A DNA stretch of 50,336 nt from a virus, in the IMG/VR virus record IMGVR_UViG_3300035698_009910, positions 1-50,336 of that record. One strand, given 5' to 3'. Shown here in pieces: positions 2 through 48,992 of this stretch (positions are counted from its first letter, which is position 1; each line of letters starts with the position of its first letter). The position numbers and the translations under genes are program-made. The notes under the pieces were generated by a model. The model was not told the DNA's origin, ran no database searches, and saw nothing but the letters and a program-made list of their open reading frames with translations.

Positions 2-3000
2 AAGAAAAATAGTAATAAACGCATTACTCCTAATGATATAAAAAAATTAAAAACTGCTATTAAAAGTATAGAAACTGAAATAGCAAATATTAAAAAAGAA
101 ATTGTTGAAGCTACTGAAAACTCTATAAAAACAGAGCCTGTAATACTTTCAGAAGAAGAAAGTAAAAATAAAAAGATAGAAGTTGTTAAAGAAAGACTTA
201 ATGATAGATATAAAGATAAAGAAAGACTTAAAATAGATGAGTTAAATAAATTAAGTGACGAATTAGGATTAGAAAGTGTAACTATTGAAGAGTTAGCTGA
301 ATTATATTATTCAGATGATAATGCACAAACTGTAATAAATGATTTTTTTGAAAGAAAAAGAGAAAATGCAAAAGCTAGAAAAGCATCTAAAGATGAAACT
401 AGTCCTAATAAACAAACAGTAAATGCTGAAACAAGTGATGTACAACCTACTGATCCTAATACAAATGATGAAAATGGTCATATAATAATAACTCATGATA
501 AAGAGTTTAATGAAGATGCTGATAAACCTAAGCTAAAATCAATAAAGAACCCAGGTGACCATAAATTTTTTGATGAAGATCATCGTACTGGTAATGAAGT
601 ACTTAATGATAAAAATTATGAGTTAGAAGGTGAGTATGTTTATTATGAGTTAGACATGCAAAATAATTATAACCAAAGTTTTGCTCACGAAGGACAACAT
701 ATTATAGAAGCAGTATATTATAAAGATGGTAACCCAGAAAATAAAACAAAAGAAAATAGAGTTATTTTAGGTAAGGTAAGAGGTAATCACAAGTTACAAA
801 ATACACCACATCTTAAGTCATTGCGTACAATGATAATGAGAGATTATAAAGCTGCTGGATCACCAGAAGGTATATTTGCTTCTAATTATAAGAATAAGAT
901 TAAGCAAAAGATGGGTGGTGTTATTCATACTATAAATCAAGATAGTAACCCAATTAATGTATTAGATAACGAAGGTGGTGAAAAACTTGTATTTGGTGTT
1001 GCTGTTGAAGAAGGTGTTGGTAATGTTACTTTAAAAGTACCTAATGCTGCAAATTTTGGTGATGTTTATACAGAAATAATGCTTGATCCTAGATACCAAT
1101 TAAGTAATGGTAATGCTTTTCTTATTGTATTTAATAATAAAGGACAAGCTGTACCTATTCATTTAAATACAGGAAAGTTTAAAGATGCTGAACAAAGTGT
1201 TAAAGATGAGGTTAATGAGCTTATTGATAGTCTTACTGAAAGTAATGTTAAAGAAGTAAGTAATAAAATAAGTAATCATGTATATACTAATATAACTTCT
1301 TATAATAAAGCTACTGGAAAAGTTACTATACAAACAAAAGTTTATGATAAAGATACAGATAGCTATAATAATGTAGGAAAATCTATTTCTTTAGAAGAAT
1401 ATAGAAATAAATTAGATAACTCTACACGACAAATAGATGTTACAAAAATTAATAAAGGTACTTACAATGAAGATATTTCAAATAATGGTGTAGTAACAAC
1501 TGATGTAAATCCGATTACACACTTTCATTCTGGTGGTATTGAAGTATCTCCACTTATAGAAGAAGTTAGTTCTAAGCAATCTAGTACTGAAACTAAACCA
1601 AACAATCAATCAGGACTTGATAAAATTAATGAAGCTGAACAGGAAGAGTTATCTGAAAATTCTAATATAGTTTTAGGAAAAGCTGTATCCAATGCTTCTT
1701 CCGAAGGTACTTTTAAAAGTCAAACTGCTGAAAAAATTAGAGAAATTGCTGTAAAGTACTTATCTAGTATTTCTAAAAAAATAGAAGGTTATTTTAAAGG
1801 TGAAAAAATAGAAGGTATTAATTCTGCATCAGATCTAATTATGCTTTTTGGAGCAAATCCTATATTAAAATTTTTAGGTAATAATACAATAAACAGTATA
1901 AGAACTTTTTTAGAAAATAAAGAAAAGGGAATAGAAACAAGAACTATAGAAGAGGTTTTTCTTAACAAAAAAACTAATGAAGAAATAAAAGCCAAATACC
2001 AAGCAAAAAGAGATGCTTTAAATAATTCTACAAATACTGAATCTGAACTTGATAAAATAAAAACTTTACCTTTTAAAGAAAGAATACCTGCTCTTATTAA
2101 AATGGGCATAATATCTTCAACTACTACATATAATTTAGGTAAAAGGTTTCCTATTATTGTAAATATTGCGGGGGTAAAAGTAGCTTTTTACAGAAGTTCA
2201 GAAGGAACAGGCGGTAAAGAAAAAGGAAAGTGGACACCTATGTTTGGTTTTGGAGTTTCTAAAGGCAATTCTTGGTTAATAAAAGGAGATATAAACACTT
2301 TAAATAAAAATTATAATAGCGAAGCTATTAAAGAGTACGCAGATATTTTAAATAGTACTCTAAATTGGAATCACGAACTAGATAAAGGAACTGTAAAAAA
2401 TCATCCCTTTTTCAATGTATTAGAATTGGCAAAAAATGAACAAGCTTTTAATAAAGAGTTATATAATGTAGAAGACTTAGACATTGTTAATTATAAAAGT
2501 GATGTAAGTGGATATATCAATAATAAACTACAAGAAATAAATGCTAAGTACCAAGCTCAAAGAGATGCTTTGAAGTCTAAACCTTCTACTGAAAATACAT
2601 CAATTGAAACAGTTAATAAAGCTACTGGAAAAGTTACTATACAAACAAAAGTTTATGATAAAGATACAGATATTAGTTCTAAGCAATCTAGTACTGAAAC
2701 TAAACCAAACAATCAATCAGAACTTGATAAGATAAATGCCGATGAAAAAGAAGCGTTAGATATTGATAACAAGCTTGTTTATGAAACAGGTAAGGATAGA
2801 GAAGGTAAAAATTATAAAGGAGGATGGATACAGCATCAAGAAGAAACGATAGCCAAATACCAAGCTAAAAGAGATGCTTTAAAATCTAAAGATACTACTA
2901 CTGAAAATATATCTACAAACGAAAGTAGTGAATCTAAACCTTTAGTATCAAAAAAACCAGCCCCTGTTACTACAGCAGCTACTAAAGAAACATTGTCGCC

Positions 3001-6000
3001 TACTAGTTCTAAAGAAGATACATTAAAACAACTTGATGAGATTAAAAAGAATAAAGACAATATTCAATTAGAAAATAATGATCCCAATGCTGATTTTTAT
3101 GTTAACAAAATTACAGGTCAAAAATACCGTCGTGTAACTAGTACTTTTAAAAATAAACCAAGTAAGGATGCTTTAACACCAGAAGGTGTACTTAAAACAT
3201 CAGCTAAAATTGGTACAGCATTAGATAGAATTACTCGTGACTTTTTTGATGGTAAATTAGAATCACATGATGTTTATAAAACACATGAGTCATATGAAGA
3301 GTATAGTGATTTTATAAAAGAACTTATCAAACTGTCGGTAAATTTTAGTAACAAAGGAGAAACTGTTGTAACTGATGAGATACTTCTTTACAATGATGAA
3401 TTAGGTATAGCAGGTACTGTAGATCTACTTACTGTAGATAATGATGGTAATGTACGTATATATGATCTTAAGGCTAAACGTAGTGGTTTAGCTAATGTAG
3501 ATAAGACATACAAAAATGGTAAAGTAGTACCAAAGGGTACAGACGGTATTTTAACAGGTAGAGAAGAATGGCAACAACAATTGTCTATATATCGTATACT
3601 GTTAAATAATACACATGGTATACTAGCTGTTGATACAGTCATATTACCTATACAAATAACTAAATTTGATAAGAAGAAAACTAAGGAACAAAACAGTGTA
3701 ACTAGAACGTCTAAGTTTATACATGAGCAACCTATTACAATGTTAGATAAGGTTGAAAATCTTAAGTTTGGTATAGGTACTATTAAATTAGCTTTAGATA
3801 CTAACTCAGAAGGTGGTGAAGATACTGGTAAAGATGACGATTATTTAGATGATCTTTCTCCATCAGATGAATCATTTGTAGATCCTGCTTTTTCTAAAGA
3901 GTATTTAGAAGATAAAAAATGGAATAAGAAAAAAGAGTTAGATAAACTTTCTAAAATATTACCTAAAGATATAGCAGTTAAAGTAACAGATGATATAGAA
4001 CAAATATTTGGTGTTGATGCATGGGGTGTTTATTTTAATGCAATGATTTATTTACATTCTGATAATAAACAAGGAGTTGCTTATCACGAAGCTTTTCACG
4101 CTATATATAGAAGTGTGCTTTCTCCAACACAAAGAGAAGCTTTAATGGAAGAAGCTAAAGTTAAATATGCTGCACCATTATATAGTGAATTAAATGATTA
4201 TAAAGAATGGTATGGTGATAATGCATTATCTGTATGGTATGAAGAACAAATGGCTGATGGTTATGCTGAGTACTCTGTTAACCAAGATGCTGAAGCATTA
4301 GGTATTAAAGGTAAGATTAAAGAATTTTTTGAAAAAATTGCAATGTGGTTTGGTCTTATAAAAGATGGTCATAAATCTAAGATTAATGATTTATTTTATA
4401 AAATAGAAACTGGTGGATTTAAGCATCACCAATTATATAGAAAAACATCATTTACTAAACCAGCGTTTGCTTTAAAAAATATGACAGCTACTGATAAAGC
4501 AGAAGCCATTGAACATTTTAAATTTATATTTACTGATATATTAACTTCAATACGTGAAAAACAAGGATACAAAGATAATGTATCTGATGTAGATGTTATA
4601 AATAAAGAAGGTGGTATACATCCATTTATGCAACATGTCTTTACTAAGATGATGCGTAATAGAGTTAGTGCAGCAGAAACTGCTCCTCGTATAGCTGAGG
4701 ATTATAAAAACATAGCACGTAATTGGGTGTCAGGTAAACCAATTAAAGTAAAACCTAGAGTTAAGCTAGAAACTATTAGTGGTGAGTTTGTATTTGATTA
4801 TACACCTGGTCAACTTTACTATGATGCATTAAAGTCTTTAAAAGATTTTGGTATTGTTATAAAAGCTGAGAAAGTAGAAGAAGCTATAGCAGCTAAAAGT
4901 AAAGACTTTGAAAAAGTAGTTTCTAGAGTAGAAGATGAAGAAATAACAAATTATCAATCTTGGGAAATTAGTGCTAATCAAGTTTCTTCTAAGGAAAGAT
5001 TATCTCCTAAAATTAAAAGAAAATTTGCTAACATACCTAAAACAAATTTTGAAGGTGTTCCAAAAACAGATAAATTTGGTTACCCTGTATTTGAAGATTT
5101 TAATGTTGTATATAGATATTTAGAACAAAATATATCTGATATATACAATCCTATAACAATGATGAATAAATTATATTCATTACGTAATAGTAAACCTTAT
5201 ATTAATACTATAATTAATTTAATTGAAGGAGATCAACAATTAAAATCTGAAGTGTATACTTCTATTGTGGCTAAACAATTTAATCATTATTTATACATAA
5301 GACAAGACAAAAATGGAACTAAATTATTTGGTTCTAATAGATTAGGTATTCGTAATGTTATTATAAATGACCTTAAAAATGCATTTGAATATAGTAAATT
5401 AACAAAAGAAGGAAAAGTAGATAAAGTTGTAGCTAAACAATTTCAAGATAAATTTAATTTATTAGCTACTGAATTTAATAAAAGAGAAAATTATGATAAA
5501 ATAAAAGATGAAAATGGTACTTCTACTTTTGTATTCAATGAAAAACTTGTTACAAAAATGTATGATTTATTAAACGAATATTCTATAGATGTTAAATTAG
5601 ATCAATTAAAAGGTTTATCTAAGCTTGGTACAGTTAAGTTTAAAGATTTCTTAGGTTTAACACAAAACACTAAAGGTGTTAAATCGTTAATTGCTTTGTT
5701 AGTAGCTGGTAAAAATCCTTTATCAACTGTTGATTTAGAATCAACAGAAGGCTCTACTTTAGAAAGTATAGCTAAATCGTTAGTACCTGTAAGTCAAAAC
5801 TTATTTGAATCATCATTTATAAATGTAGGTGGTAAGTCTACTTATGCACATAATCCTTCTAACTTTTTACATAAAAAAATATATGAATTTCTTGATCCTA
5901 AAATACGTCAATCTTATTTAGATACTGCTTTTTATAAAAAATCTTTTTTACTTAAAGAATTAGGTAATGACATAGAGGTTGCTGAAAATTTTATGGCTGG

Positions 6001-9000
6001 TATATTAGATGGTTATAGAGCACTAGGTAAAAATAAAGGTGTTGCTTATGATGAAATGAATAAAGAGCAATTAGAAACAACTGTTATAAATGCTTATCAT
6101 AATAATGGTAATAGAAAATTTGCTTATTACAGATTTCCTGTATTATCTGATTCTCCACAATTACCATTAATTAAATTTAAAAAATACAGCTCAGATGAAG
6201 TAATAGACAATATGTATACTACTGTACTTCAGGAAGTAGCTAGTATGGCTGCTATTAAAAATAGTAAAACTGTTTCTAATATTAAGAATGTAAAGGAAAG
6301 AATGAACAAGTTTTATTTAGTACCTTTTATGGATGATTATAAAGGTAAAATTACAGATGTAGCAGAAACTAAAGCTTTTATTAAAGCAGAAATGAAAAAA
6401 GGCTTTGAATTAGAATTAAAAAGATTAGTTAAATTAGGTATTGTTGAAACAAGTTCAATAACTAAACTTAGTGGTGATAAAAAAATTATATATAAAAATA
6501 CAGAAAAAGAGTTATTACCAACTACTGCTGCTAAACAAGGAGATTTAAAACCTTTATTAGCGGAATACTATTACAATAGTAAAATGATGAATACACAGAT
6601 GATATCTTTATTTTCTGGTGATTTAAAGTTTTATAAAAATAGTGCAGACTGGCAAAAACGTAATAAACAAGTATGGTCACCTAAACAATATTTAGATACA
6701 TCAGTTACTAATAAAACTTATGCAACTATATATTTAAAAGATAAATTTAAACCATCAGAAAAAGAATTTACTGATTTTGTAAGTAAAACATTAACGGATA
6801 AAGGTTTTCCTAAAGCTTATATAAATTCTGTAGTTGCTTTATATAACGGTAATAAATCTAATAATGAAACAGATGCTCAAGCATATATTACGTTAGAAAG
6901 ATATAAAGAAATATGGGAAGGTCTTGGTAGATGGACAAATAAACATGAGCAAGCATATAATAAAGCTAAAGTAGGTAAACCATTAAATCAAAATGAGCAT
7001 GGATTATTTAGTATTATTAAACCTTTTCAATTTACACATACTACTGTTGATGGTATAATAGTACCTGTACAAAATAAAAACTCTGAGTTTGTTTTATTAC
7101 CTGAGTTTATTAATATGGATAAAACAGGTAAACTTAAAGAGATACATGATACATTACAAAATATTCAACGTGAAAAAGGTATAACAGCATCTGCACAATT
7201 TGAATCTGCTGTTAAAGTTGGTTTATATGGTCAATCAGATAATGCAGGAGATGCTACTGTTCATGAATTAAGTAATTCAGATTTTGGGCTTCAAGTTGAA
7301 ACACCATCTCATTATTTAGATTTTGATGTAAGGTTTGGTACACAGATACGTAAACTTATGTTAGCTGATACAAATCCAAATGAAATATTTAATGTTAAAA
7401 ATATACCAGAAATTAGTGAAATTTTTGGTAAAGAAGAAGTTAGTTTTGCTGAATTAGCTAATAAGTATCAAGAAATAATAGGTGTTAATTTAAAAGAGGG
7501 TGCTAATGAAGCACAACTTATAACTAAAGATAATACTAGAATATCAGATTACCTTACAGAAGCTGCTGAAGATAGAGATTTAGGTCAAAACTTAGTAGAT
7601 GCTATACAATTAAATTCTGATGGTAATTTTACACTTGATTTATCTCATCCTTTACATTCTAAACGTAATGAGCAATTACTTAATGCTTTATATAAAAATA
7701 AAGTAACTAAGCAAAAAATATCAGGTGGTCAGTTTATTAATGTATCTTCATTAGGTTTTTCAGATGATTTAAAAATTATTACTAAAGGTGATGATTTTTT
7801 ACATATGGAAGCTTATATGCCTTGGTGGTCAAAAGAAAAGTTTGAAGGTATATTAGATGATGATGGGTATGTAGATGTAAATAAGATAACAGATAAGCGT
7901 GTATTAGACGTTTTAATACATCGTATCCCAACAGAGGATAAATATTCTATATTTAAACTTAAGATTAAAGGATTCACTCCTCCTGGTTCTGGTGGAGCTG
8001 TTATATTACCTCGTGAAGCTACTACCATAGCAGGTCTAGATTTTGATGTAGATAAGATGTTTGGTATGATGTTTGCTTTAAAAAATGTAGATGGTCAACC
8101 AACAGTAGTTAATCCCTCTATTGATACAGAGGGAGGTAGAGATAATATGTTACTTTCTATTATGTTAGGCATATTAAGTCATTCTGCAACATCTTCTAGT
8201 ACATTCCAACCTGGTGGATTTGATAACTTAAAAAACACATCACTTAATGTTAGAATGTATAGAGTTGGTTTAGAACCAACTAATTATATAGGTGAAACAT
8301 TAAAAGATACAATTGAAATTAAAGAAGAAGCATTAAATTCTATTGATATGGATTTAACAGAACCTTCTGTACAAACAGAATTGTTTACTAGAAACATGAC
8401 TGGTAAAAATCTTATTGGTATATTTGCAAATCATAACGTTAACCATGCAATGGCACAGTTTACTGATTTAAGTGTAGTAGAAGGATTAGCTCCTATATTT
8501 GATGGTAAAAAAGCAACAGCTTTGAATAGTATTATTGCACAAAATGGTTATAATAATACATCTAGAGCAGGAGCATCTAAACTTGCGGCTGTTGTAGATA
8601 ATGCAAAAGATCCTATTGCTGATTTTCTTAACATTAATACATTTACTGCTGATACAGTAGCTTTATTAGGTAGATTAGGTCATGATCCAGAAACATATTT
8701 ACTATGGACAACTCAACCAGTACTTGTTGAATTAACAGAAGAGATATTTTCTACTGGTGCTGCTTTTGGTGAAGAAGATAATGTACTTAATAGACGTATA
8801 GCTAAAAAGATAAATCAAATAAAAAGTATTCTTAATCAAGATTTTAAACCTTCTTTACAACCTTATACTAAAGAAAGTTTAATTAAAATGCATAAAACTA
8901 ATTTTTTATACCAAAAAGATAAAGATGTATTATCTCAAAAACAGTTAATTGAAAAATACTCTACTTTCTTTTTAGAACAATTAGATGTATTGTACTCATT

Positions 9001-10858
9001 TAAAAATAACAAATCAGTTGCAGACGATTTAGCTAAATTAGTTAGAGGCACTAGACCAGATGCGGTTGGTGCTGGACCAACAATGTCTCAAAATGAAACA
9101 GCTATTCGTAATAAAGAATCATTAGATAGTATTAATAAACTTGTAAATCATGAAGATTTTTATACTGGTGATAATTTATCATTAATAAATGACTTTTATA
9201 AATATGGTATTCAACAAGCTAATGATGACTTATCTAGATTATTTCCTTGGAACAATGCTCAGTTTATGCATATTAAAGATAGAATAGAAGGTAATAAAAT
9301 TAAAGGTAATTTATCAGTAGATGAAATAGAATTTGTTAATTACAGTATTTATTCGTATATTGCAAGTTCTAAAGAATATTTAACAGAATCAAATAAAAAT
9401 ATAGATTTATTGACTAAATTTCATACTAGATTATCAGATTTTAAAAACAATAATCCTAATAATAGATATGTTGAAACATTTTTAAATAGATTTCAAATAG
9501 TACCTTATAATAAAGATAAAGGATTTAAGCAAATTAGATTTTATAACACTGGTATGAGTGCTATTGAAAAACAAAATCTTACTTCTATATGGGAACAAAT
9601 GTTTAATGATAAAAATCCTGAGATTAAAAAAATAGCTCATGATTTAGCTAAATATTCTTTTATGAGTTCTGCTTTTACATTTACACCATACGGTTTTAAT
9701 AATATGCTACCTGTTTCTTATTATACTTCTCTCATGGATGAAAACGGTGAAATGTTTAACGATTGGTTTAGAGATAAAGTTAATAATACAGAATTAGCTA
9801 CAATGGACCCAGAGTTTTATGAAAACTTTTATACCCAGTTTATACAAAATAACTTTACACAACAGAATTTTGTTAAAACTATTAATATATATAAGACTAA
9901 TAAAAATGTAGATTCTCTTATTTTTGGTAAAGGTGTTGGTGTTGTTACAATAGGTAAGAAAAACAAAAAAACTTGGGTAAATAACGATGGTAATATGCCT
10001 AAATTTATTAGACATAAAGGAGAAGTTAAAGATATATTATTTACTTTAACATCTAGTAATGATAAAGGTGAATATATATATAGTCAAGCTAAGACTTTAG
10101 GTATGACTGGTTTACTTTTAGAATATTCTCCAGAACGTTATAGTCTACAATCACTTAATAGTGATAATAAAATAGGTGTAGATTACAATGAACAATCTTG
10201 GTATGAAGCTAACTTAGCTGATGAGGTTTCAGTAGCTGATGTAGTTCAAGATGAAACAACAATTATAAATGACAAATCTAATTTATTAAATAAAAATATT
10301 TCTTATTATACTGGTGATATAAAACCAGATAAAAATACTGTATTTGTATTTGGTAGTAATCCAGAAGGAAGACATGGTAAAGGAGCAGCTAAAATAGCTA
10401 AAGATAGTTTTGGTGCAAAATATGGACAAGGAGAAGGGTTACAAGGAAACGCTTATGCTTTACCTACTAAAGATTTAAGAATTAAAAAAAATAAAGGATT
10501 TAAATCTATATCTCCAGAGCAAATAGTAGAAAACATACAAAAAATGTATGATTCAGCTATTAACAATCCTGGAAAAACATTTAAAGTAGCGTATAGAAAC
10601 ACTACTCAATTAAGTTTAAATGGTTATACTGGATTAGAAATGATAGATTTATTCAATGAAGCTGGAAATATTCCGTCTAATGTAATGTTTAGTGAAGAAT
10701 GGATAAACACAGGTAAATTAACTAAAGAAAATAAACCAAATGAACAATTAGATTTATTTGATGATAACATAACAAAAGAAGATAAAGCTAAGTCTTTATT
10801 ATCTGGGTTAACTGATACTAGTAACGAAGAAGCTAAAAAGAAAAAAGATGAGTGTTAA
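2..10858 (+). CDS. Giant virion RNA polymerase polyprotein-like protein (5' end outside window)
   Basis: This is the largest gene, at least 3618 codons. The first ATG is at 656, but the frame has no stop from position 2 to 656, so the protein starts upstream of the window and 656 should not be taken as its start. Order of parts: a charged Lys/Glu/Asn-rich N-terminal stretch; a repeat-rich linker (about 1300-2890); a PD-(D/E)XK nuclease-like segment (about 3090-3720); an HEAFH zincin-like segment (4084-4098); a long region ending in the RNA polymerase barrel with DFDVD at 8039-8053; and a macro-like domain (about 10308-10800). In crAss-like phages a single-chain RNA polymerase of this type is packaged in the virion and injected to transcribe early genes; that role is inferred here. 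The stop is TAA, and the next gene overlaps it by 11 bases. Assignment as RNA polymerase is good; the other domain calls are moderate. Confidence 0.85.
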   Translation, partial: KKNSNKRITPNDIKKLKTAIKSIETEIANIKKEIVEATENSIKTEPVILSEEESKNKKIEVVKERLNDRYKDKERLKIDELNKLSDELGLESVTIEELAELYYSDDNAQTVINDFFERKRENAKARKASKDETSPNKQTVNAETSDVQPTDPNTNDENGHIIITHDKEFNEDADKPKLKSIKNPGDHKFFDEDHRTGNEVLNDKNYELEGEYVYYELDMQNNYNQSFAHEGQHIIEAVYYKDGNPENKTKENRVILGKVRGNHKLQNTPHLKSLRTMIMRDYKAAGSPEGIFASNYKNKIKQKMGGVIHTINQDSNPINVLDNEGGEKLVFGVAVEEGVGNVTLKVPNAANFGDVYTEIMLDPRYQLSNGNAFLIVFNNKGQAVPIHLNTGKFKDAEQSVKDEVNELIDSLTESNVKEVSNKISNHVYTNITSYNKATGKVTIQTKVYDKDTDSYNNVGKSISLEEYRNKLDNSTRQIDVTKINKGTYNEDISNNGVVTTDVNPITHFHSGGIEVSPLIEEVSSKQSSTETKPNNQSGLDKINEAEQEELSENSNIVLGKAVSNASSEGTFKSQTAEKIREIAVKYLSSISKKIEGYFKGEKIEGINSASDLIMLFGANPILKFLGNNTINSIRTFLENKEKGIETRTIEEVFLNKKTNEEIKAKYQAKRDALNNSTNTESELDKIKTLPFKERIPALIKMGIISSTTTYNLGKRFPIIVNIAGVKVAFYRSSEGTGGKEKGKWTPMFGFGVSKGNSWLIKGDINTLNKNYNSEAIKEYADILNSTLNWNHELDKGTVKNHPFFNVLELAKNEQAFNKELYNVEDLDIVNYKSDVSGYINNKLQEINAKYQAQRDALKSKPSTENTSIETVNKATGKVTIQTKVYDKDTDISSKQSSTETKPNNQSELDKINADEKEALDIDNKLVYETGKDREGKNYKGGWIQHQEETIAKYQAKRDALKSKDTTTENISTNESSESKPLVSKKPAPVTTAATKETLSPTSSKEDTLKQLDEIKKNKDNIQLENNDPNADFYVNKITGQKYRRVTSTFKNKPSKDALTPEGVLKTSAKIGTALDRITRDFFDGKLESHDVYKTHESYEEYSDFIKELIKLSVNFSNKGETVVTDEILLYNDELGIAGTVDLLTVDNDGNVRIYDLKAKRSGLANVDKTYKNGKVVPKGTDGILTGREEWQQQLSIYRILLNNTHGILAVDTVILPIQITKFDKKKTKEQNSVTRTSKFIHEQPITMLDKVENLKFGIGTIKLALDTNSEGGEDTGKDDDYLDDLSPSDESFVDPAFSKEYLEDKKWNKKKELDKLSKILPKDIAVKVTDDIEQIFGVDAWGVYFNAMIYLHSDNKQGVAYHEAFHAIYRSVLSPTQREALMEEAKVKYAAPLYSELNDYKEWYGDNALSVWYEEQMADGYAEYSVNQDAEALGIKGKIKEFFEKIAMWFGLIKDGHKSKINDLFYKIETGGFKHHQLYRKTSFTKPAFALKNMTATDKAEAIEHFKFIFTDILTSIREKQGYKDNVSDVDVINKEGGIHPFMQHVFTKMMRNRVSAAETAPRIAEDYKNIARNWVSGKPIKVKPRVKLETISGEFVFDYTPGQLYYDALKSLKDFGIVIKAEKVEEAIAAKSKDFEKVVSRVEDEEITNYQSWEISANQVSSKERLSPKIKRKFANIPKTNFEGVPKTDKFGYPVFEDFNVVYRYLEQNISDIYNPITMMNKLYSLRNSKPYINTIINLIEGDQQLKSEVYTSIVAKQFNHYLYIRQDKNGTKLFGSNRLGIRNVIINDLKNAFEYSKLTKEGKVDKVVAKQFQDKFNLLATEFNKRENYDKIKDENGTSTFVFNEKLVTKMYDLLNEYSIDVKLDQLKGLSKLGTVKFKDFLGLTQNTKGVKSLIALLVAGKNPLSTVDLESTEGSTLESIAKSLVPVSQNLFESSFINVGGKSTYAHNPSNFLHKKIYEFLDPKIRQSYLDTAFYKKSFLLKELGNDIEVAENFMAGILDGYRALGKNKGVAYDEMNKEQLETTVINAYHNNGNRKFAYYRFPVLSDSPQLPLIKFKKYSSDEVIDNMYTTVLQEVASMAAIKNSKTVSNIKNVKERMNKFYLVPFMDDYKGKITDVAETKAFIKAEMKKGFELELKRLVKLGIVETSSITKLSGDKKIIYKNTEKELLPTTAAKQGDLKPLLAEYYYNSKMMNTQMISLFSGDLKFYKNSADWQKRNKQVWSPKQYLDTSVTNKTYATIYLKDKFKPSEKEFTDFVSKTLTDKGFPKAYINSVVALYNGNKSNNETDAQAYITLERYKEIWEGLGRWTNKHEQAYNKAKVGKPLNQNEHGLFSIIKPFQFTHTTVDGIIVPVQNKNSEFVLLPEFINMDKTGKLKEIHDTLQNIQREKGITASAQFESAVKVGLYGQSDNAGDATVHELSNSDFGLQVETPSHYLDFDVRFGTQIRKLMLADTNPNEIFNVKNIPEISEIFGKEEVSFAELANKYQEIIGVNLKEGANEAQLITKDNTRISDYLTEAAEDRDLGQNLVDAIQLNSDGNFTLDLSHPLHSKRNEQLLNALYKNKVTKQKISGGQFINVSSLGFSDDLKIITKGDDFLHMEAYMPWWSKEKFEGILDDDGYVDVNKITDKRVLDVLIHRIPTEDKYSIFKLKIKGFTPPGSGGAVILPREATTIAGLDFDVDKMFGMMFALKNVDGQPTVVNPSIDTEGGRDNMLLSIMLGILSHSATSSSTFQPGGFDNLKNTSLNVRMYRVGLEPTNYIGETLKDTIEIKEEALNSIDMDLTEPSVQTELFTRNMTGKNLIGIFANHNVNHAMAQFTDLSVVEGLAPIFDGKKATALNSIIAQNGYNNTSRAGASKLAAVVDNAKDPIADFLNINTFTADTVALLGRLGHDPETYLLWTTQPVLVELTEEIFSTGAAFGEEDNVLNRRIAKKINQIKSILNQDFKPSLQPYTKESLIKMHKTNFLYQKDKDVLSQKQLIEKYSTFFLEQLDVLYSFKNNKSVADDLAKLVRGTRPDAVGAGPTMSQNETAIRNKESLDSINKLVNHEDFYTGDNLSLINDFYKYGIQQANDDLSRLFPWNNAQFMHIKDRIEGNKIKGNLSVDEIEFVNYSIYSYIASSKEYLTESNKNIDLLTKFHTRLSDFKNNNPNNRYVETFLNRFQIVPYNKDKGFKQIRFYNTGMSAIEKQNLTSIWEQMFNDKNPEIKKIAHDLAKYSFMSSAFTFTPYGFNNMLPVSYYTSLMDENGEMFNDWFRDKVNNTELATMDPEFYENFYTQFIQNNFTQQNFVKTINIYKTNKNVDSLIFGKGVGVVTIGKKNKKTWVNNDGNMPKFIRHKGEVKDILFTLTSSNDKGEYIYSQAKTLGMTGLLLEYSPERYSLQSLNSDNKIGVDYNEQSWYEANLADEVSVADVVQDETTIINDKSNLLNKNISYYTGDIKPDKNTVFVFGSNPEGRHGKGAAKIAKDSFGAKYGQGEGLQGNAYALPTKDLRIKKNKGFKSISPEQIVENIQKMYDSAINNPGKTFKVAYRNTTQLSLNGYTGLEMIDLFNEAGNIPSNVMFSEEWINTGKLTKENKPNEQLDLFDDNITKEDKAKSLLSGLTDTSNEEAKKKKDEC
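1303..1622 (+). repeat. First copy of a two-part duplicated linker segment
   Basis: Two blocks (1303-1360, 58 bases; 1566-1622, about 57 bases) recur later in the same gene at 2614-2671 and 2673-2729. The first pair is identical over 58 bases; the second differs at one base that I see. They encode a stretch beginning NKATGKVTIQTK and one beginning SSKQSSTETKPNNQS. Between the two blocks this copy has 205 bases that the second copy lacks. Confidence 0.9.
2614..2729 (+). repeat. Second, compacted copy of the duplicated linker segment
   Basis: This repeats 1303-1360 and 1566-1622 with the two blocks joined almost directly. The high nucleotide identity suggests a recent internal duplication followed by deletion, or recombination between related phages. 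A second repeat family, encoding KYQAKRDAL or a close variant, occurs three times nearby (about 1990-2020, 2545-2572 and 2853-2883). Confidence 0.9.
3090..3720 (+). other. PD-(D/E)XK nuclease-like domain within the giant protein
   Basis: The segment starts with a YRRVTS-type strand, has a helix with GTALDR, then GIAGTVDLL (about 3403-3430) followed by RIYDLKAKRSG (about 3455-3487). The pattern GxxD, then DxK after about 15-20 residues, followed by a helix with QLSIYR, is that of Cas4/RecB-like PD-(D/E)XK nucleases. Fusion to the polymerase suggests an ejected enzyme that acts on host or phage DNA, which is inference. Confidence 0.65.
3960..4400 (+). other. Zincin-like metallopeptidase domain within the giant protein
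   Basis: YHEAFHAIYR at 4081-4110 is an HExxH zinc motif. A downstream EEQMADGYAEY helix (about 4236-4270) could supply the third zinc ligand. The layout matches metallopeptidase-like domains seen in large polyvalent phage proteins. It could process the polyprotein or cleave a host target; neither is shown by the sequence. Confidence 0.6.
7300..8110 (+). other. RNA polymerase catalytic double-psi barrel
   Basis: HRIPTEDKYSI (about 7919-7953), then AVILPREATT, then AGLDFDVDKMFG (about 8030-8065) parallels the bacterial beta-prime order RAPTLHR ... NADFDGDQM. The three aspartates of DFDVD at 8039-8053 would hold the catalytic Mg2+. The variant DFDxD rather than DFDGD is known from the crAss-like phage phi14:2 polymerase, which is related to QDE-1 polymerases. 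All three aspartates are kept, so an active enzyme is expected. Confidence 0.85.
10305..10800 (+). other. Macro-like (ADP-ribose-binding-like) C-terminal domain
   Basis: The segment begins with SYYTGDI, then VFVFGSNPEGRHGKGAA and GQGEGLQGNAYALPTKD. The FVFGSN...GRHGxGAA signature with a following AYALPTK is shared by small phage and bacterial proteins with a macro-like fold. Its position as a C-terminal appendage of a virion RNA polymerase suggests a role in countering ADP-ribose-based signalling or modification, but this is inference. Confidence 0.5.
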
Positions 10859-13800
10859 ATGTCCAAATAAGAATACTACTGAATGGAGAATGTTAAAAGA
10901 AAACTTAGGTGAGCTAAATGCTTACAAAGTTTTTGTTTCTAATAATAACGAAGTTCCTGATTTAGGTACAATAAAACAAATTGTTGATAGTTATGAGAAT
11001 ATATTAAATTATAATCTTAAAATTGCTAAAAGTTTAGTAAAATTAACAAATGTGCGTAAAACAATACGTACAAATACTAAAGACAAACCTTATATTGAAA
11101 AAAATATAACTAAAACATTAATGCAAAATGGTGTGCCAGCAGATCAAATTAAATTAATGTTTGAATATATTAAAGAAAATAATATTACTGAAATTTCTAC
11201 TGAAGAATTAGCTATAGAGTTAATGTCTAAATTTGGATTTGTTATTGAAACTAATGTAACTAAAAAAAATATTATTGGTTCACAAAATGAGTATTTTGAT
11301 GAAAATGGTAATCAGATTACAGAAAAAGAAGCAAAAATATTTAAAACTGCTAATACTAATTATTATTCTAATCTTACAGTTCCAGGAGGTACTAACTATA
11401 CAGAAAATGAAATATCTACACCTGATATTACACCTAATATTAAAGGTCATGCAAAGTTTAGTACAGATAATGGTATAGGGTGGTTTAGAAGTGATGAACA
11501 AGCTAATGGGTTAACTGAAATGCCTTCAGATTTAATTAAAGAACTACAAGCTACAGGAGAATATAATGAAGCTACTGCTCAATATGCAACTAAAATACGT
11601 AGAATATTAGAACTACAATCTGATTTGTTTCAGAAACTTAGAGATAAGGTAAATGAAAACAATTTTCTACAACTACTAAACAAAAACAACAATTGGGTTA
11701 AATTCTTTATACAATCTATAGTACAAGATAGTATTAAAAAAGGTTATGAAAAAGTATTATTCCCTACAGGTGAAACTGCTGCTAAAATAGAAGGACATGA
11801 AACTATTGCTGATGAAATTATTAAATTAGATAAAAGAATATCAATAGTTAATAGTGCTTTAAATAAAATTAAAAATTCTACTATAGTAGAAAATACAAAA
11901 TATGAAGATATTGGTACAGATGCATTTGATAGTTTTAATATAGGAGAAGGAAAATTTAAGTATAATAACACTACTCCCACACTTTCAAATATAACAGGTA
12001 CTAAAGAACAACTAGAAAATAGATTAAAAAAAGAAAAATCCGAACAGGAAAAAGAAATTATTAGATTAAAAGCTAAAAAACAAGAATTAAAAACTCAAGG
12101 TTTAGAAAAACTTAAACCTGTTGAGGCTTTTTATACAAACACAGTAACTAATATTCTTAAAAAATTATATGATGTTAAGGTTATTACAGATGAACATGGT
12201 AATACTTGGAATGAAATAGATTTAACTAAAGTTAATAATAAAAATGAAATTCTATTTTCTCTTAATGATGGTAAAAAAGCTAAAGGGAAAAGTAAAAAAG
12301 TTGAAACACTAATAGAAAAACTTACTCCTTTTTTTGTTAAACATGGTATTAGTTTAAATGCTATTGATAATTTACAGAAAAAGTATGGTGTAGATGCTGT
12401 AGCAGCAGCTAACATGGTAACTAACACAATTGATTATTTAAATAATCAAAAAGGATTAGAAGCTATACCTGAGGAAATTGGTCACTTTGCTGTAGAAATA
12501 TTAGGAGTAGAACATCCATATGTTAAAAGAGCATTAGAGTTAGTTAAAGACCATCCTCGTTATCAAGAAGTTTATGATGAGTATTTTGCTATATACGATA
12601 ATGAATTAGATGTAAAAAAAGAAGTATTAGGTAAATTATTAGGTGAAAGTTTATTAGATAAAACTAATGACAAAAGTAATTTAAGTACAATGCTTAAAGC
12701 TATTTGGAATGCAATGAAAAAATTTGCAAATAAACTTGTTGGTAATAATTATCAATCAGAATTAGATTCTATTATAGATAGTATGTCAGACATGATATTT
12801 GATAATAGTATGGATGTTAATAATAATAAAACTGGTGTATTTTATAATAAAGCATCTAATTTAGGTAAAGATGTTAAGATATTAGAAAAAGCTTTGAGTG
12901 CATTATATAGTAGATTATCTAGACTTGAAAACCTTAAAGGTATAAGTTCTGAAGCTAGGGGTAAAAGTATTAAGAAAACAACATTTATTATTAAAAAAGC
13001 TATTGAAGATAATTCTATTGAATTAGGTTTAAAGTCTTTTATTACTGAGTTTAGTAAAGAAATAGGCGTATTATATAATGAAAAAAATACAGGTGCTCTT
13101 CAAAATAAACAAGTTGTTATGGATGGTACACGTACAACAAATGCTATTAACTTTATTAACAATTATGACAATTTAATTAGAAAAATGCTTGGTGTATTTG
13201 AATCACCATCATTTAATGAAAAATATATTAATGAATATAATACATTAAAAGAACTTAGTGCAACATTTGAAAAAATTAAAAGAATTATAAATGATATTGT
13301 AGAAGATAATGCAGAAGATATAATTAGAAATCAATCTAAGTCTGGTGATGTAGATGGTTTATTGGCACATATTCAACAAGATGTTAGTGGTTGGAGAGCA
13401 TTTGTAGGCTCACCAAGACATGCTGGTAATGAATTAATACGAATAGCTACAGATATTATAGACACAGCAAGAATACGTGTTAAAATGCATTCTAATCAAT
13501 ATGCTAGTCAATTAATGGAAGCACGTAAAAAGTTTAAAGAAGCTGGTCTTAAAGAGTTAGATCTTTTTGAAATGCATGATGGTAAATTAACTGGTAATAT
13601 TATATCAAAACATAACAAACATTTAGTTAACGAAAAAGTAAATGAAGTTAAAGAAGATTTAATGTTAGAATTTGGTATAGAAGATTATAATGATATTACT
13701 TATGAAACATTAGATAGAGAACAAAAAAAGATTTTTAAAAGAAAATGGAAACAATTTTTTGATGAGCATACACTTCCTAATGATGATTCAACACCTACTG

Positions 13801-29870: not shown

Positions 29871-31439
29871 TTAGCTTTTGATTATTTCTCTAGTTTTAGT
29901 TGCATTATGTTCAACATTTTCACTATATTCTAATTTTTCATTAGCAATACCTATTTTTCCAGTAAATCTTTTTTTTCTTTCATCAAAATATGATGTAAGT
30001 TTTTCATTATCTACTTTAGATTTACTAAAACCAAAATTTAAAATATCATTAATAGTGATTTTTTCATTTTCTAATATTGATTTACTATTATTTTCTACAA
30101 AATAAGTAAATGCCATACAAAATAATGTCCAATTTTTAATTTTACTAAAATTCATACTAGCACTATGAGGTCTAAATTCAAGAGTTAATGGTACACCTTT
30201 ATCAGGTTTACTATTATCAATATGTGCATTTCTAGTGTTAAAATTACAAGGTATTAAATTAAACCATTTGTAACGATAAAGATGTTCTAATGCTACACCA
30301 TTACTATATCTATCTGTATATCTACCTCCTGGATGTGGTGTAAATTTATTTATTTTTTTACCAAGTTCACGTCCTTTAACATGATTAGCATTAGCCATGT
30401 CTTTGTATAACTCTTCATAAGCAATAGAAACACCATATTTTTCACCGTGTTCATCAATGTATTTTTTAAAATCCCATTTTTTAAGACCACTAGTGTAATC
30501 ATTGTTTCTTCTAGATGGTGGAAATATTTGATATATTTCTTTTTCAATTTTAAGAGCCAACATATAACTAAATATTGTAAACTTTTCATTAAAATTTGCA
30601 CCACCAATATGAACATGTATACCACATTTGTTACTAATGTTACAATAAGAATTAATAGCTTTAACAGAACGATAAAGATTAGCTAAACCAGCATCGCCTT
30701 TTAATACACCTGTTACATATTCACCACCATAAACATTATTATCTTCATCTCTTAACGATCCATCATGTACAGCATCTAAATTTAAATGAGCATTACGATA
30801 TATAAAATCTGGTATTTTTCCACTACAAGTTTCTATTTCTACACCAAAAGTATATTTCATACCACCAGTTCCTATAGTAGAACCTGTCATTACACCGTAA
30901 TTAATCGCTTCTTTTTTACTATTAAATTGATCGCTATTAGAACGAGAATTTTTAAATTTTTTATATTGTATTTTGTTTGTTGTTTTTTTAACAACATCTT
31001 TTTTTGGAACTAAAGAATTATGTTCACAAGAAATAAAAAATCCTTTTTTATTTGCTAATTCCATTGTTTCAAATAAAATATAATTAGATTCATTTTTTCC
31101 TTGTAATAGGCAATTATATTCTTTTTCACCTATTTCATCCATTATATTTTCTCTATCACCAAATTCTTTTACTGTACCGTTTTTAAAATATACTTTAATC
31201 ATGTCATCTTTATGATAATAATTATTATTAATTTTTATGCAATCTTCTTTTATAAATAAAATATATTCATAAGAATAATTTTTATTTAATTTTTTTACAA
31301 CTAAAGGGGGGTTATTTTTTCTTGAATCATAAAAAATACCGTCAATACTTATTGCTAAGTATGACGGTATTTTTCTATTTAAAGAGTCAATTACATAATC
31401 TTCTTTTTTTTTAGTTCTTATGTTTGCCCAATTTGTCAA
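29871..31439 (-). CDS. Amidoligase-family protein with extra N-terminal domain
   Basis: A 522-aa protein. From about residue 195 it shows the glutamine-synthetase-like amidoligase pattern: YTFGVEIETCSG, AVHDGSLRDEDNN, GGEYVTGV, NKCGIHVHIGG and PLTLEFRPHSASM. These Glu, His and Arg positions would bind Mg-ATP and a carboxylate, forming an amide bond. The first 190 residues are a separate strand-rich region of unknown function followed by a Ser/Asn/Lys linker. It lies between two class II amidotransferases with tiny gaps, implying a shared pathway. The substrate is unknown. Confidence 0.8.
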   Translation of the reverse strand: MTNWANIRTKKKEDYVIDSLNRKIPSYLAISIDGIFYDSRKNNPPLVVKKLNKNYSYEYILFIKEDCIKINNNYYHKDDMIKVYFKNGTVKEFGDRENIMDEIGEKEYNCLLQGKNESNYILFETMELANKKGFFISCEHNSLVPKKDVVKKTTNKIQYKKFKNSRSNSDQFNSKKEAINYGVMTGSTIGTGGMKYTFGVEIETCSGKIPDFIYRNAHLNLDAVHDGSLRDEDNNVYGGEYVTGVLKGDAGLANLYRSVKAINSYCNISNKCGIHVHIGGANFNEKFTIFSYMLALKIEKEIYQIFPPSRRNNDYTSGLKKWDFKKYIDEHGEKYGVSIAYEELYKDMANANHVKGRELGKKINKFTPHPGGRYTDRYSNGVALEHLYRYKWFNLIPCNFNTRNAHIDNSKPDKGVPLTLEFRPHSASMNFSKIKNWTLFCMAFTYFVENNSKSILENEKITINDILNFGFSKSKVDNEKLTSYFDERKKRFTGKIGIANEKLEYSENVEHNATKTREIIKS

Positions 31440-31440
31440 T

Positions 31441-44721: not shown

Positions 44722-46287
44722 TCATGTTATTTTGTTTATATTATTTCTGATTTTATTTAATGAAATATTATTGTAAAAGTTACCATTTTCAAAGATAGTT
44801 TGTAAATATCCAGTATCTTCTAATTCCCAAGATTGTTGGTCAAATAATACTAATTTATTATTATTTTCTGGGTCATGTCCTACAGATAACAAACCTTTAG
44901 CTGATTTTTTAGTGCCATCATCAGTAATAGGGTCTTTAAAGATTTCTCTACCTACTGTTTTTAAATGTAACTCTGAAGAATCCTCAGCTGTTTCATCACA
45001 CTCTAACAATTCTATATAAGTAGCTTTCATTGCAAATCCAAAAGTATCTCTAGTGTTAAATTGATAAGTAAAACTACCAATACCTAACACTACATTAGTA
45101 GATGCAAAACCTTTAGCTTTTAATCTTTCAATTATCTGCACAGCTCTTTCATCATTAATAGAATCACCATAGATTGCTCCAATGTGAGGGTCTAATACTT
45201 TGTAACCTTGTGAGTTAATAGTACCACCAAATGTATCCCAAAGAAGTTCTATTACTCCTTTTTCTTCATTTGACCAATTACTTTTATGTTTACCTGCAAT
45301 ACCTGTTCTATAAGCATTTAAAACGTTTCCACAAATAATATCTACAGGGTCTCCACTATCAGGTCTAATTACTAATTTACCAGGTCTTGCAAGAATTTCT
45401 TCTTTTAATGCTGGTAATGTTTGAATAAGAACTTTCCATAAATCCCATGTATCAGATACAATAGACAATACTGGTGCATCTTTATAGATGTTTAGTAGAT
45501 TTCTAAAAGTACCAATTTCATCATCTTTAGTACCAGCACACATAACACTATGTTCTGTAGCAGGTACACCACTAATAACGTTTCTTACGGCATCATAATA
45601 TTTTCTAGCTCCATGTATAACAGGTAAACTGTCAGAGCCTAAGAATGATGTTGCATGACCTAATCCACTACTAATTGTAGCATCAACAGAGTCCATACCT
45701 CTCATAGAAAAGTCATGACCTTGATAATCTACAAACCACACATTATTTTTATCAGTTTCTAAAGCTCCTTTAGTAAGAATCTTTTTGAAATTGTGAGCTA
45801 ATGTAGCTGATGTCATAGGTTTCCATAATAGATTAGAAATCAATGTTTCTAAGAAATTAGTTAACCAAAAGAACTCAGGCATTGTATTTACTATAGTAAG
45901 TACAGGTACTCCCATTGGTACAGATGTACCTTCTGATAATGCTTTTACTTTAATAGGTAAATAACCTAAATCCCATAATGCTTCAATATGACTTACATTA
46001 TAATCAGAACCAAGATATAAAGAATATTCTTCTTTAATTTCTTGACATACTTTAATCTTAACTCCTGGAGTTATATTTCTTAAATCTGTAATAAAAAAAT
46101 ATTTATCAAACATTTCTTTAATTTGTCTCATTACCATTTGTTGTCCAAATGATATTACATTTTCTACATTTTTAGGTGCATATTTATTACTTCTTGGAGT
46201 AAAGTTACTGTATACTAAAGTTGTTCCTTTAGGATATTGCTTGTGATGGTCTACTTTATAGCCATCTGTTGCTAAGAATGGGTTCAT
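44722..46287 (-). CDS. Nicotinamide phosphoribosyltransferase-like enzyme (NAMPT/NadV family)
   Basis: A 521-aa protein of the NAMPT family. Signatures are DGYKVDHHKQYPKGTT with YSNFTPRS at the N-terminus, FVDYQGHDFSMRGMDS, SGLGHATSFLGSDS and GTKDDEIGTFRNLL. The C-terminal half has LVIRPDSGDPVDI, YGDSINDERA and GIGSFTYQFNTRDTFGFAMK. NAMPT joins nicotinamide to PRPP to give NMN. In phages a related enzyme (Namat) instead joins nicotinamide to ADP-ribose pyrophosphate, giving NAD directly; sequence reading alone does not separate the two. It lies one base from the PRPP-synthetase-like gene, so both act together. Confidence 0.9.
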   Translation of the reverse strand: MNPFLATDGYKVDHHKQYPKGTTLVYSNFTPRSNKYAPKNVENVISFGQQMVMRQIKEMFDKYFFITDLRNITPGVKIKVCQEIKEEYSLYLGSDYNVSHIEALWDLGYLPIKVKALSEGTSVPMGVPVLTIVNTMPEFFWLTNFLETLISNLLWKPMTSATLAHNFKKILTKGALETDKNNVWFVDYQGHDFSMRGMDSVDATISSGLGHATSFLGSDSLPVIHGARKYYDAVRNVISGVPATEHSVMCAGTKDDEIGTFRNLLNIYKDAPVLSIVSDTWDLWKVLIQTLPALKEEILARPGKLVIRPDSGDPVDIICGNVLNAYRTGIAGKHKSNWSNEEKGVIELLWDTFGGTINSQGYKVLDPHIGAIYGDSINDERAVQIIERLKAKGFASTNVVLGIGSFTYQFNTRDTFGFAMKATYIELLECDETAEDSSELHLKTVGREIFKDPITDDGTKKSAKGLLSVGHDPENNNKLVLFDQQSWELEDTGYLQTIFENGNFYNNISLNKIRNNINKIT

Positions 46288-46288
46288 A

Positions 46289-47131
46289 TTAAAATTGTTT
46301 AATTATTTCTAAATTTCCAGGTTGATCTCCTATACTAATATCATCATACATGTGATAATATTCATCAAATTTACTGTTAGTAGTAAATACTTTATCAAAG
46401 TAATTAGTTACTGGATCTACACCTAAATTTTGCACAGTCATATGACTAACAGCTAAGTATAATTTACCACAGTTACGTTCTTTGAGTAATTTAGCTAAAC
46501 CTTTAAAAGTACCACCATAAACAGATATATCATCTACAATAAGAATGTCTTTACCTAAAAAATCTTTTTTACCAATTTTTTGAATTATATTAGATTTTTT
46601 ACCGTAATAACTTCTACTTTTACTACACGAATGAACTTCTCCTTGCCAATCTAATTGATCGCATAATTTCATTAAAGGTTTAAAACCACCTGCATCTGAA
46701 GACATTAAGATAGTATTTTTAGAATTTAATCTAGGCATTTTATTTACATAATCATAATGTCCTAATTTATATAATACTTTTGCTATAAACTCACTATTAT
46801 TAATAATTTCTACATTATCCATTAAAGCTTCTACAACTTCTGCATTATGAGGATGAAATATTTTAAAATTAGCATTCATTCCATTTAGAAACTTACATAC
46901 TAATTTTAAACCACTTGATTGGTCATCAGCAAATCTTCTGTCAGCTTGTGCATCAATAAGATTAGGTATAATAATTAAAGGTTTTAAATTATATTTATTA
47001 TTGTAAGCATCTACAAATTGATTCAAATGCCATAAATCTTCATAAGAATTTAATTTCCAAGTAATAATTTCTTCACCTGAATGTTCTGTAGTAACATAAC
47101 TACTTCCATCTGGATATTTATTTATTTTCAT
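46289..47131 (-). CDS. Ribose-phosphate pyrophosphokinase-like enzyme (Prs/Adps family)
   Basis: I place the start at the ATG at 47131, because a longer frame to 47176 would run into the tRNA. About 280 aa. ADRRFADDQSSGLKLVCKFL corresponds to the Prs catalytic flap region, HPHNAEVVE to a metal-binding loop, and DILIVDDISVYGGTFKGLA to the PRPP-binding motif. Prs makes PRPP from ribose-5-phosphate and ATP; phage relatives called Adps pyrophosphorylate ADP-ribose. It is encoded immediately upstream of the NAMPT-like gene, forming a two-step NAD-making unit. Confidence 0.88.
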   Translation of the reverse strand: MKINKYPDGSSYVTTEHSGEEIITWKLNSYEDLWHLNQFVDAYNNKYNLKPLIIIPNLIDAQADRRFADDQSSGLKLVCKFLNGMNANFKIFHPHNAEVVEALMDNVEIINNSEFIAKVLYKLGHYDYVNKMPRLNSKNTILMSSDAGGFKPLMKLCDQLDWQGEVHSCSKSRSYYGKKSNIIQKIGKKDFLGKDILIVDDISVYGGTFKGLAKLLKERNCGKLYLAVSHMTVQNLGVDPVTNYFDKVFTTNSKFDEYYHMYDDISIGDQPGNLEIIKQF

Positions 47132-47145
47132 TTTTATAATTTTAG

Positions 47146-47304
47146 CAGGACATAAAGGATTCGAACCTCCGACCATACATTATAACAGTGCTTTTTATAT
47201 TATCTTTCCACGTATAACTTATTAGCACAACATTATCTTCCATAAGTTGATAATGTATTGTTTTATTACATAATGTATTGCTCTAACCACTGAGCTAACG
47301 TCCT
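47146..47304 (-). tRNA. tRNA-Ile(UAU) split by an 87-base insertion in the anticodon loop
   Basis: The 5' half has acceptor AGGACGT (47298-47304) and a D-arm GCTC-AGTGGTTA-GAGC. The 3' half has a T-arm GGAGG-TTCGAAT-CCTTT and acceptor ATGTCCT. The anticodon stem ATACA (47274-47278) pairs with TGTAT (47175-47179) only if 47186-47272 is removed. The joined seven-base loop TTTATAA gives anticodon UAU. The insertion starts after U and ends in G, as in group I introns, but at 87 bases it is too short for one. It has no encoded CCA, and G follows the acceptor. Confidence 0.6.
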
Positions 47305-48862: not shown

Positions 48863-48906
48863 AAACTAACCATGAATGTCTACTAACAACATTCGTCTAA
48901 ATTAAG

Positions 48907-48992
48907 TACCGAAAGTGGGGGTCGAACCCACACAGCCATATTTAGCTACAGGATTTTAAGTCCTGCGTGTCTACCAGTTTCACCATCTCGGC
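48907..48992 (-). tRNA. tRNA-Leu(UAA)
   Basis: An 86-base class II tRNA. Acceptor GCCGAGA pairs with TTTCGGT (two G-U pairs). The anticodon arm is CAGGA-CTTAAAA-TCCTG with anticodon UAA. A long variable arm follows, and the T-arm is GTGGG-TTCGACC-CCCAC. CCA is not encoded. It reads TTA, one of the most used codons here. Confidence 0.93.

Follow-up and report, generated by a model that had tools for sequence, protein, structure and literature searches.

The window analysed here is a whole IMG/VR viral record of 50,336 bp (IMGVR_UViG_3300035698_009910), classed as linear, a kind of record that is often a fragment. Its first open reading frame raises the question of why a phage RNA polymerase (RNAP) shares one polypeptide with a nuclease, a zincin and a macro-like domain, and of what the last of these might contribute. 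A first-pass annotation had claimed a single frame of more than 3600 codons, a length borne out by translation, which gave 3618 stop-free codons open at the first base of the contig (Table 1). The 5′ end is missing at the contig edge and the true start lies beyond the contig. All four segments named in that annotation (the nuclease-like segment, HEAFH, DFDVD and FVFGSN...GRHGKGAA) were found and are backed by homologues, so that they are not chance motifs.

Table 1 Features of the window discussed in the text.
Feature	Position	Strand	Evidence
Fused gp47-like and gp50-like virion RNAP polypeptide	2..10858	+	ORF, translation; BLAST to crAss001 gp47 and gp50
PD-(D/E)XK nuclease domain (RecB/AddB/MGME1-type), residues 1036-1265	3107..3796	+	Alignments, PDDEXK_1, model
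Zincin-like metallopeptidase domain, residues 1310-1440	3929..4321	+	HEAFH 4085-4099, EExxAD about 4241-4258
crAss-like virion RNAP (gp50/phi14:2 RNAP homologue), residues about 1640-3290	4919..9871	+	BLAST, profile; DFDVD 8039-8053
Macro-fold domain (A1S_2505/phrog_2072 family), residues 3416-3585	10247..10756	+	NF049995, phrog_2072, AF2, Foldseek, VIA
gp49-like RNAP-associated virion cargo protein, 1597 aa	10848..15641	+	BLAST to crAss001 gp49, E 3e-29
Namat/Nampt-like enzyme	44722..46287	-	phrog_448 1e-172; GSFTYQFNTRD 45046-45078
PRPP-synthetase-like, candidate Adps, adjoining the Namat-like gene	46289..47176	-	phrog_619 3.9e-34

The fused polymerase polypeptide

Whole-protein searches of the fused frame against Pfam, PHROG and PDB missed the RNAP, the nuclease and the zincin alike, and relatives and profiles were therefore needed for their detection. 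The RNAP region matched crAss001 gp50 (BLAST, E 8e-70) and gave tblastn matches in 110 phage records, including other Crassvirales RNAPs, while a profile of its core aligned with the phi14:2 RNAP (PDB 6VR4) over ~770 positions (E 2.8e-65), in agreement with the proposed identity as a crAss-like virion RNAP. The DFDVD motif (residues 2680-2684) aligns with the DFD[IV]D of relatives and conforms to the DxDxD pattern. In cr116_1 (L015, 17097-27962) the RNAP is split close to DFDxD and another ORF lies between its two pieces, an arrangement suggestive of an intron or intein. The gene for the gp49-like protein overlaps the fused frame by 11 nt.

The nuclease motifs comprise GTVD from residue 1138, D-L-K at residues 1155-1157 and a QxxxY region at residues 1191-1198; in an alignment of nine diverse relatives D1141, D1155, K1157 and Q1193 were invariant, and Pfam PDDEXK_1 was recognized in seven of the nine. 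The nuclease model was modest (pLDDT 64, pTM 0.66) and matched AddAB (Foldseek E 7.8e-5; VIA Z 10.2, rmsd 3.4, 148 aligned) and MGME1 (VIA Z 10.1, rmsd 4.2, 162 aligned). Motifs and predicted core fold together place this domain in the PD-(D/E)XK superfamily, as had been anticipated from the letters. Of the nuclease and zincin pair only the nuclease was modelled, because combined alignments mis-split rows, and the nuclease profile was too divergent for scanning contigs. The zincin assignment follows from HEAFH (residues 1362-1366) and EExxAD (residues 1414-1419), with HExxH and EExxA[DE] kept across nine relatives, a combination of zinc-binding motif and downstream acidic ligand that identifies a putative zincin-like metallopeptidase. 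A second HExxH, HEGQH (residues 229-233, window 686-700), occurs in the N-terminal part of the protein, and the linker region contains an exact 59-nt repeat (1303-1361 and 2614-2672), a 91-nt repeat with 88% identity (1561-1651 and 2668-2758) and three copies of KYQAKRDAL (1980-2899).

The nuclease and zincin segments matched crAss001 gp47 (E 1e-12 and E 2e-6, respectively), in which both lie at the C-terminus, and the window protein is thus a gp47 homologue fused to a gp50 homologue. RNAP, nuclease, zincin and gp49 partner are all homologous to those of crAss001 and phi14:2 and belong to the same gene block, but in crAss001 gp47 and gp50 are encoded by separate genes on opposite strands and have no macrodomain, whereas the window joins them in one polypeptide with a macrodomain at its C-terminus (PMC10172136). 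Zincin and RNAP also share one ORF in L003 and in L004-L007, and 38 of the 82 RNAP ORFs in a sample of loci picked by RNAP alone (described below) contained a zincin. Because L003 and L018 show zincin-RNAP continuity within single ORFs, the concern that the frame might be an assembly artefact could be dismissed. Nuclease and zincin are the cargo module that gp47 usually provides in these phages, here in fused form, and hence known biology; the earlier view of all the extra domains as special effectors does not hold for these two. We know of no payload domains in the fused virion RNAP of P23-45. That enzyme is likewise joined to another virion function (PMC10770324), although its partner, the tail tape measure, differs from those found here.

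The C-terminal domain and its partner domains

The last domain of the protein matched NCBIfam A1S_2505_Nterm (NF049995, 8e-28) and phrog_2072 (4.5e-31). It therefore belongs to the same family as the A1S_2505/phrog_2072 phage proteins, which are mostly stand-alone proteins of ~150 aa, common in other phages (N4-like, Vibrio and jumbo phages), whereas here the domain lies within a virion RNAP. An AlphaFold2 model built on 69 sequences (pLDDT 90.9, pTM 0.83) retrieved with Foldseek top matches that were nearly all macrodomains or designs on a macro scaffold (probability 1.0, best E 1.4e-3). VIA superpositions on TTHA0132 (Z 11.0, rmsd 2.9, 129 aligned), the alphavirus CHIKV nsP3 macrodomain (Z 10.5, rmsd 3.0, 131 aligned), TARG1 (4j5s; Z 10.4, rmsd 3.0, 124 aligned) and DarG (5m3e; Z 9.4, rmsd 3.3, 127 aligned; 5m3i was also matched) were consistent with this result. 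Pfam Macro (PF01661) gave no match to the domain at E up to 10, in contrast to these four proteins, and the assignment is accordingly structural: the domain is predicted to have a macro fold and is called macro-like, not a member of the family by sequence. It contains the loop FGSNPEGRHGKGAA (residues 3450-3463); a glycine-rich ADP-ribose loop is common to the domain and the four proteins, and its VFGSN was invariant. Per-domain structure prediction, which had been suggested as a check, thus recovered both the nuclease and the macro folds, the latter agreeing with the macro-like character first proposed. In L050 (9221-10423) the stand-alone A1S_2505 domain is joined to an N-terminal region that matches the MjaI restriction endonuclease family at a score close to the cut-off (1.7e-4).

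Other domains of ADP-ribose-related families adjoin the macrodomain in related RNAP proteins, lending independent support to the earlier idea of a function against ADP-ribose-based defence. NADAR (PF08719) was found above cut-off directly after the macrodomain in the RNAP ORFs L091 (1.1e-16) and L047 (3.6e-16). DprA-like phrog_768, which we take to belong to the SLOG superfamily, was detected in the RNAP ORFs L058 (2e-47), L049 (2.7e-9) and L048 (2e-5), and a DprA/SLOG-like profile, seeded partly from L072 and L074 themselves, added L083. The stand-alone proteins L053, L041 and L043 join a macrodomain to apparently the same DprA-like domain (phrog_768 being tested for L053 alone). Macro, NADAR and SLOG have been described by Iyer and colleagues as ADP-ribose-processing or -sensing families in viruses, typically stand-alone in phages (PMC9503650). 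In L067 the region downstream of the macrodomain (10442-10894) has a visual likeness to NADAR; NADAR calls made by eye in L067, L072 and L074 were dropped, there being no Pfam match and, for L067, a weak phrog_1017 match (0.0042).

The LPTKD motif of the window domain includes Lys3490. The lysine was present at this position in 58 of the 69 family members, among them most of the RNAP-fused ones, and was replaced by Thr or Ile in nine stand-alone members and by Val in the RNAP-fused L056 and L058. The catalytic lysines of DarG and TARG1 are K80 and K84, respectively (PMC9411070), and Lys3490 may be their counterpart, judging from the motif and the order of secondary structure elements: PTK follows the same strand as in DarG and LPTKD resembles the DarG motif NFPTKxHWR. 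A DarG profile derived from a motif scan scored 20.7 on the first loop, whereas shuffles reached no more than 19.2 once a run of 135.8, presumed to be a parsing fault, was set aside, and gave no score above shuffles on the second half, the side of the lysine.

These likenesses bear on the suggestion that the macrodomain acts on nucleic acid, stripping off ADP-ribose that DarT-like or mRNA-modifying toxins have attached to the injected DNA or the earliest transcripts and so making the template readable, a narrower form of the explanation favoured below. The attachment to the polymerase that is first to read the incoming DNA, the structural matches to DarG and TARG1, the LPTKD motif and the NADAR domains of L047 and L091, a family of guanine-ADP-ribose erasers (PMC11125620), would all suit such an activity. 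Other macrodomain classes nevertheless score equally or higher in structural comparison, the equivalence of the lysine is tentative, and the lysine is replaced in the eleven members named above; we consider this specific activity unlikely, if worth keeping in mind.

Presence and position of the macrodomain among related polymerases

In the RNAP of cr112_1 (NC_055881, Kehishuvirus), residues 215-2562 are 97.3% and residues 1-60 are 100% identical to crAss001 gp50, and a clean in-frame macrodomain insert of ~150 aa is present at residue 61, where crAss001 has few residues. A third state of this site was found in contig L023, whose RNAP is 96% identical to that of crAss001 over residues 64-2412 and has an insert of ~280 aa with the macrodomain nested in a phrog_9995 domain (9608-10663), a domain that is uninterrupted in L033. 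In the Kolpuevirus 'frurule' (host B. cellulosilyticus WH2) the macrodomain occupies positions 1887-2035 of the RNAP, a site empty in cr106_1 (77% identical), DAC15 (75%) and others. The macrodomain precedes the RNAP in cr116_1, follows it in cr50_1 (Suoliviridae) and is on the C-terminal tail in the window. Flank alignments further revealed that the site used in L059 and L062 is empty in L060, L016 and L025, which have the macrodomain elsewhere, and that L028 and L032 have another site in common. A search of viral contigs with a single macrodomain sequence was unsuccessful, whereas a five-member profile succeeded; its best 80 matches contained 37 unique ORFs, environmental or reference, combining RNAP and macrodomain, with the latter starting anywhere between 2272 residues ahead of DFDxD and 1553 residues beyond it. 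As the profile used for the search had been built from RNAP-fused domains, the RNAP-fused share among these best 80 matches is biased.

Covalent linkage to the RNAP in all Crassvirales matches seen (cr112_1, 'frurule', cr116_1 and cr50_1) and in these 37 ORFs is what might be expected if the domain regulated the polymerase or formed part of its structure, for example as a sensor of NAD/ADP-ribose or of RNA ends that tunes virion transcription, and were not a counter-defence payload. The domain is, however, lacking from the otherwise 97% identical RNAP of crAss001, and the many unrelated positions and the frequent stand-alone versions also argue against it, making a regulatory or structural role improbable in our judgement.

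The macrodomains are more alike than the polymerases that carry them, with a median identity over 545 pairs of 55.4% against 26.5% for the RNAP core, and the two identities are weakly correlated (Spearman 0.17, Pearson 0.30); the window and L018, for example, have 75% identical macrodomains and 35% identical RNAP cores. RNAP-fused and stand-alone sequences clustered in the macrodomain tree, yet with at least ten changes of label, at least five of which are forced by well-supported branches. The protein could in principle be an ordinary crAss-like RNAP polyprotein whose extra domains are long-standing and slowly evolving and have no special meaning, as is compatible with the conservation of the nuclease, zincin and RNAP as gp47/gp50 modules across Steigviridae and with the PDDEXK domains previously noted in large transcription proteins by Yutin et al. 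2021 (PMC7886860). This account fits the nuclease and zincin but not the macrodomain, the presence and position of which vary between near-identical polymerases, and for which the crAss001/cr112_1 pair already contradicts it; for the protein as a whole we find it quite improbable. Because slow evolution covers the gap in identity and not the empty or different sites, exchange is the better explanation, and the comparisons indicate that the macrodomain is an exchangeable module that related phages have gained at various permissive positions within one RNAP type.

A fair estimate of prevalence was obtained from 80 viral-contig loci picked by RNAP alone, in which two macrodomains, four SLOG-like domains (two of them confirmed by phrog_768) and one NADAR domain were detected, all within RNAP ORFs. 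About 9% of the sample thus has one of these domains, and no macrodomain was found outside RNAP ORFs within the 80 loci. Sporadic occurrence of this type is the pattern expected of an accessory, defence-linked module.

Possible function of the macrodomain and NAD-related genes of the window

We regard it as probable, with some reserve, that the protein is an injected polyvalent virion RNAP with a gp47 module that carries an exchangeable macrodomain payload, the payload probably serving counter-defence. Mass spectrometry detected gp47, gp49 and gp50 in crAss001 virions, and their ejection before the DNA has been proposed (PMC10172136). By homology to these cargo proteins, the fused protein would probably travel inside the capsid, leave through the tail before the DNA does and refold in the host, where the RNAP, as a homologue of 6VR4, would transcribe the early genes and the macrodomain would arrive at the same moment. 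Because of its fold, glycine-rich loop, mostly conserved lysine and partner domains, the macrodomain would most likely bind or hydrolyse ADP-ribose adducts or ADP-ribose-derived signals of host defences. The polyvalent proteins described in phages and conjugative elements (Iyer et al. 2017, PMC5512222) are similarly large multidomain polypeptides that enter the cell together with the DNA and have zincin-like peptidases, mixed biochemical activities and shuffled architectures; the window ORF, whose injection is predicted by homology, also combines several biochemically unrelated domains. Unlike in those proteins, a crAss-like virion RNAP forms the backbone here, and what varies is a payload of ADP-ribose-family domains inserted at several sites.

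An inactive macrodomain might instead be merely a sponge for ADP-ribose or cyclic ADP-ribose. Some phage proteins are known to sequester cADPR signals (PMC13232231, PMC12043709), and macrodomains can bind without hydrolase activity (PMC9503650). The conservation of the lysine in most RNAP-fused members argues against this, however, and the few copies expected per virion (crAss001 has about 6 of each RNAP protein; PMC10172136) would be too few for a stoichiometric sponge, a role to which we give little credence.

A search of openly accessible literature found no paper linking crAss-like phages with macrodomains. Whereas polyvalent injected proteins are known as a kind, we found no earlier description of roaming ADP-ribose modules that use a virion RNAP as their chassis. 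The majority of known phage counter-defences are produced only once infection has begun, which can be too late. If the payload reading is correct, a payload on the first-entering enzyme would be present from time zero. We more tentatively advance that crAss-like virion RNAPs are a general docking chassis for exchangeable macro, NADAR and DprA/SLOG-like modules that move between phages and sites and act in counter-defence at genome entry, before gene expression. The payload reading would give the widespread phrog_2072/A1S_2505 family a possible role and would extend to DNA phages a layout of RNA viruses, in which macrodomain and polymerase share one polyprotein. It is directly testable with crAss001 and cr112_1, a natural pair with the same polymerase without and with the domain, and with the cultured Bacteroides phage 'frurule'.

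The earlier counter-ADP-ribose idea gains further support from a Namat/Adps-like gene pair encoded in the window. Adps and Namat form NARP1, which rebuilds NAD+ from ADP-ribose. The signature GSX-phi-X-phi-X-phi-TRD tells Namat from Nampt (PMC12774641); the motif of the window enzyme fits it and a PRPP-synthetase-like gene is adjacent, suggesting that the phage probably encodes NARP1. ADP-ribose freed by the RyDEP glycosidase is reported to feed NARP1 (PMC13232231) and, by a suggestive analogy, a macrodomain freeing ADP-ribose would do the same. A general association of NAD-reconstitution genes with macro-bearing RNAPs was not supported, as phrog_448 (Nampt/Namat) was not enriched in macro-bearing phages (4/38 with the macrodomain vs 2/11 without).

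Elsewhere in the window, the minus strand after the gp49-like gene encodes RNR, an exonuclease, a primase, Sak4 and a DNA polymerase/exonuclease. An amidoligase-like gene beside a glutamine-amidotransferase-like gene (29871-32790, minus strand) possibly belongs to a small-molecule or surface modification pathway, and a single tRNA-Leu (taa) gene is located at 48906-48992 on the same strand.
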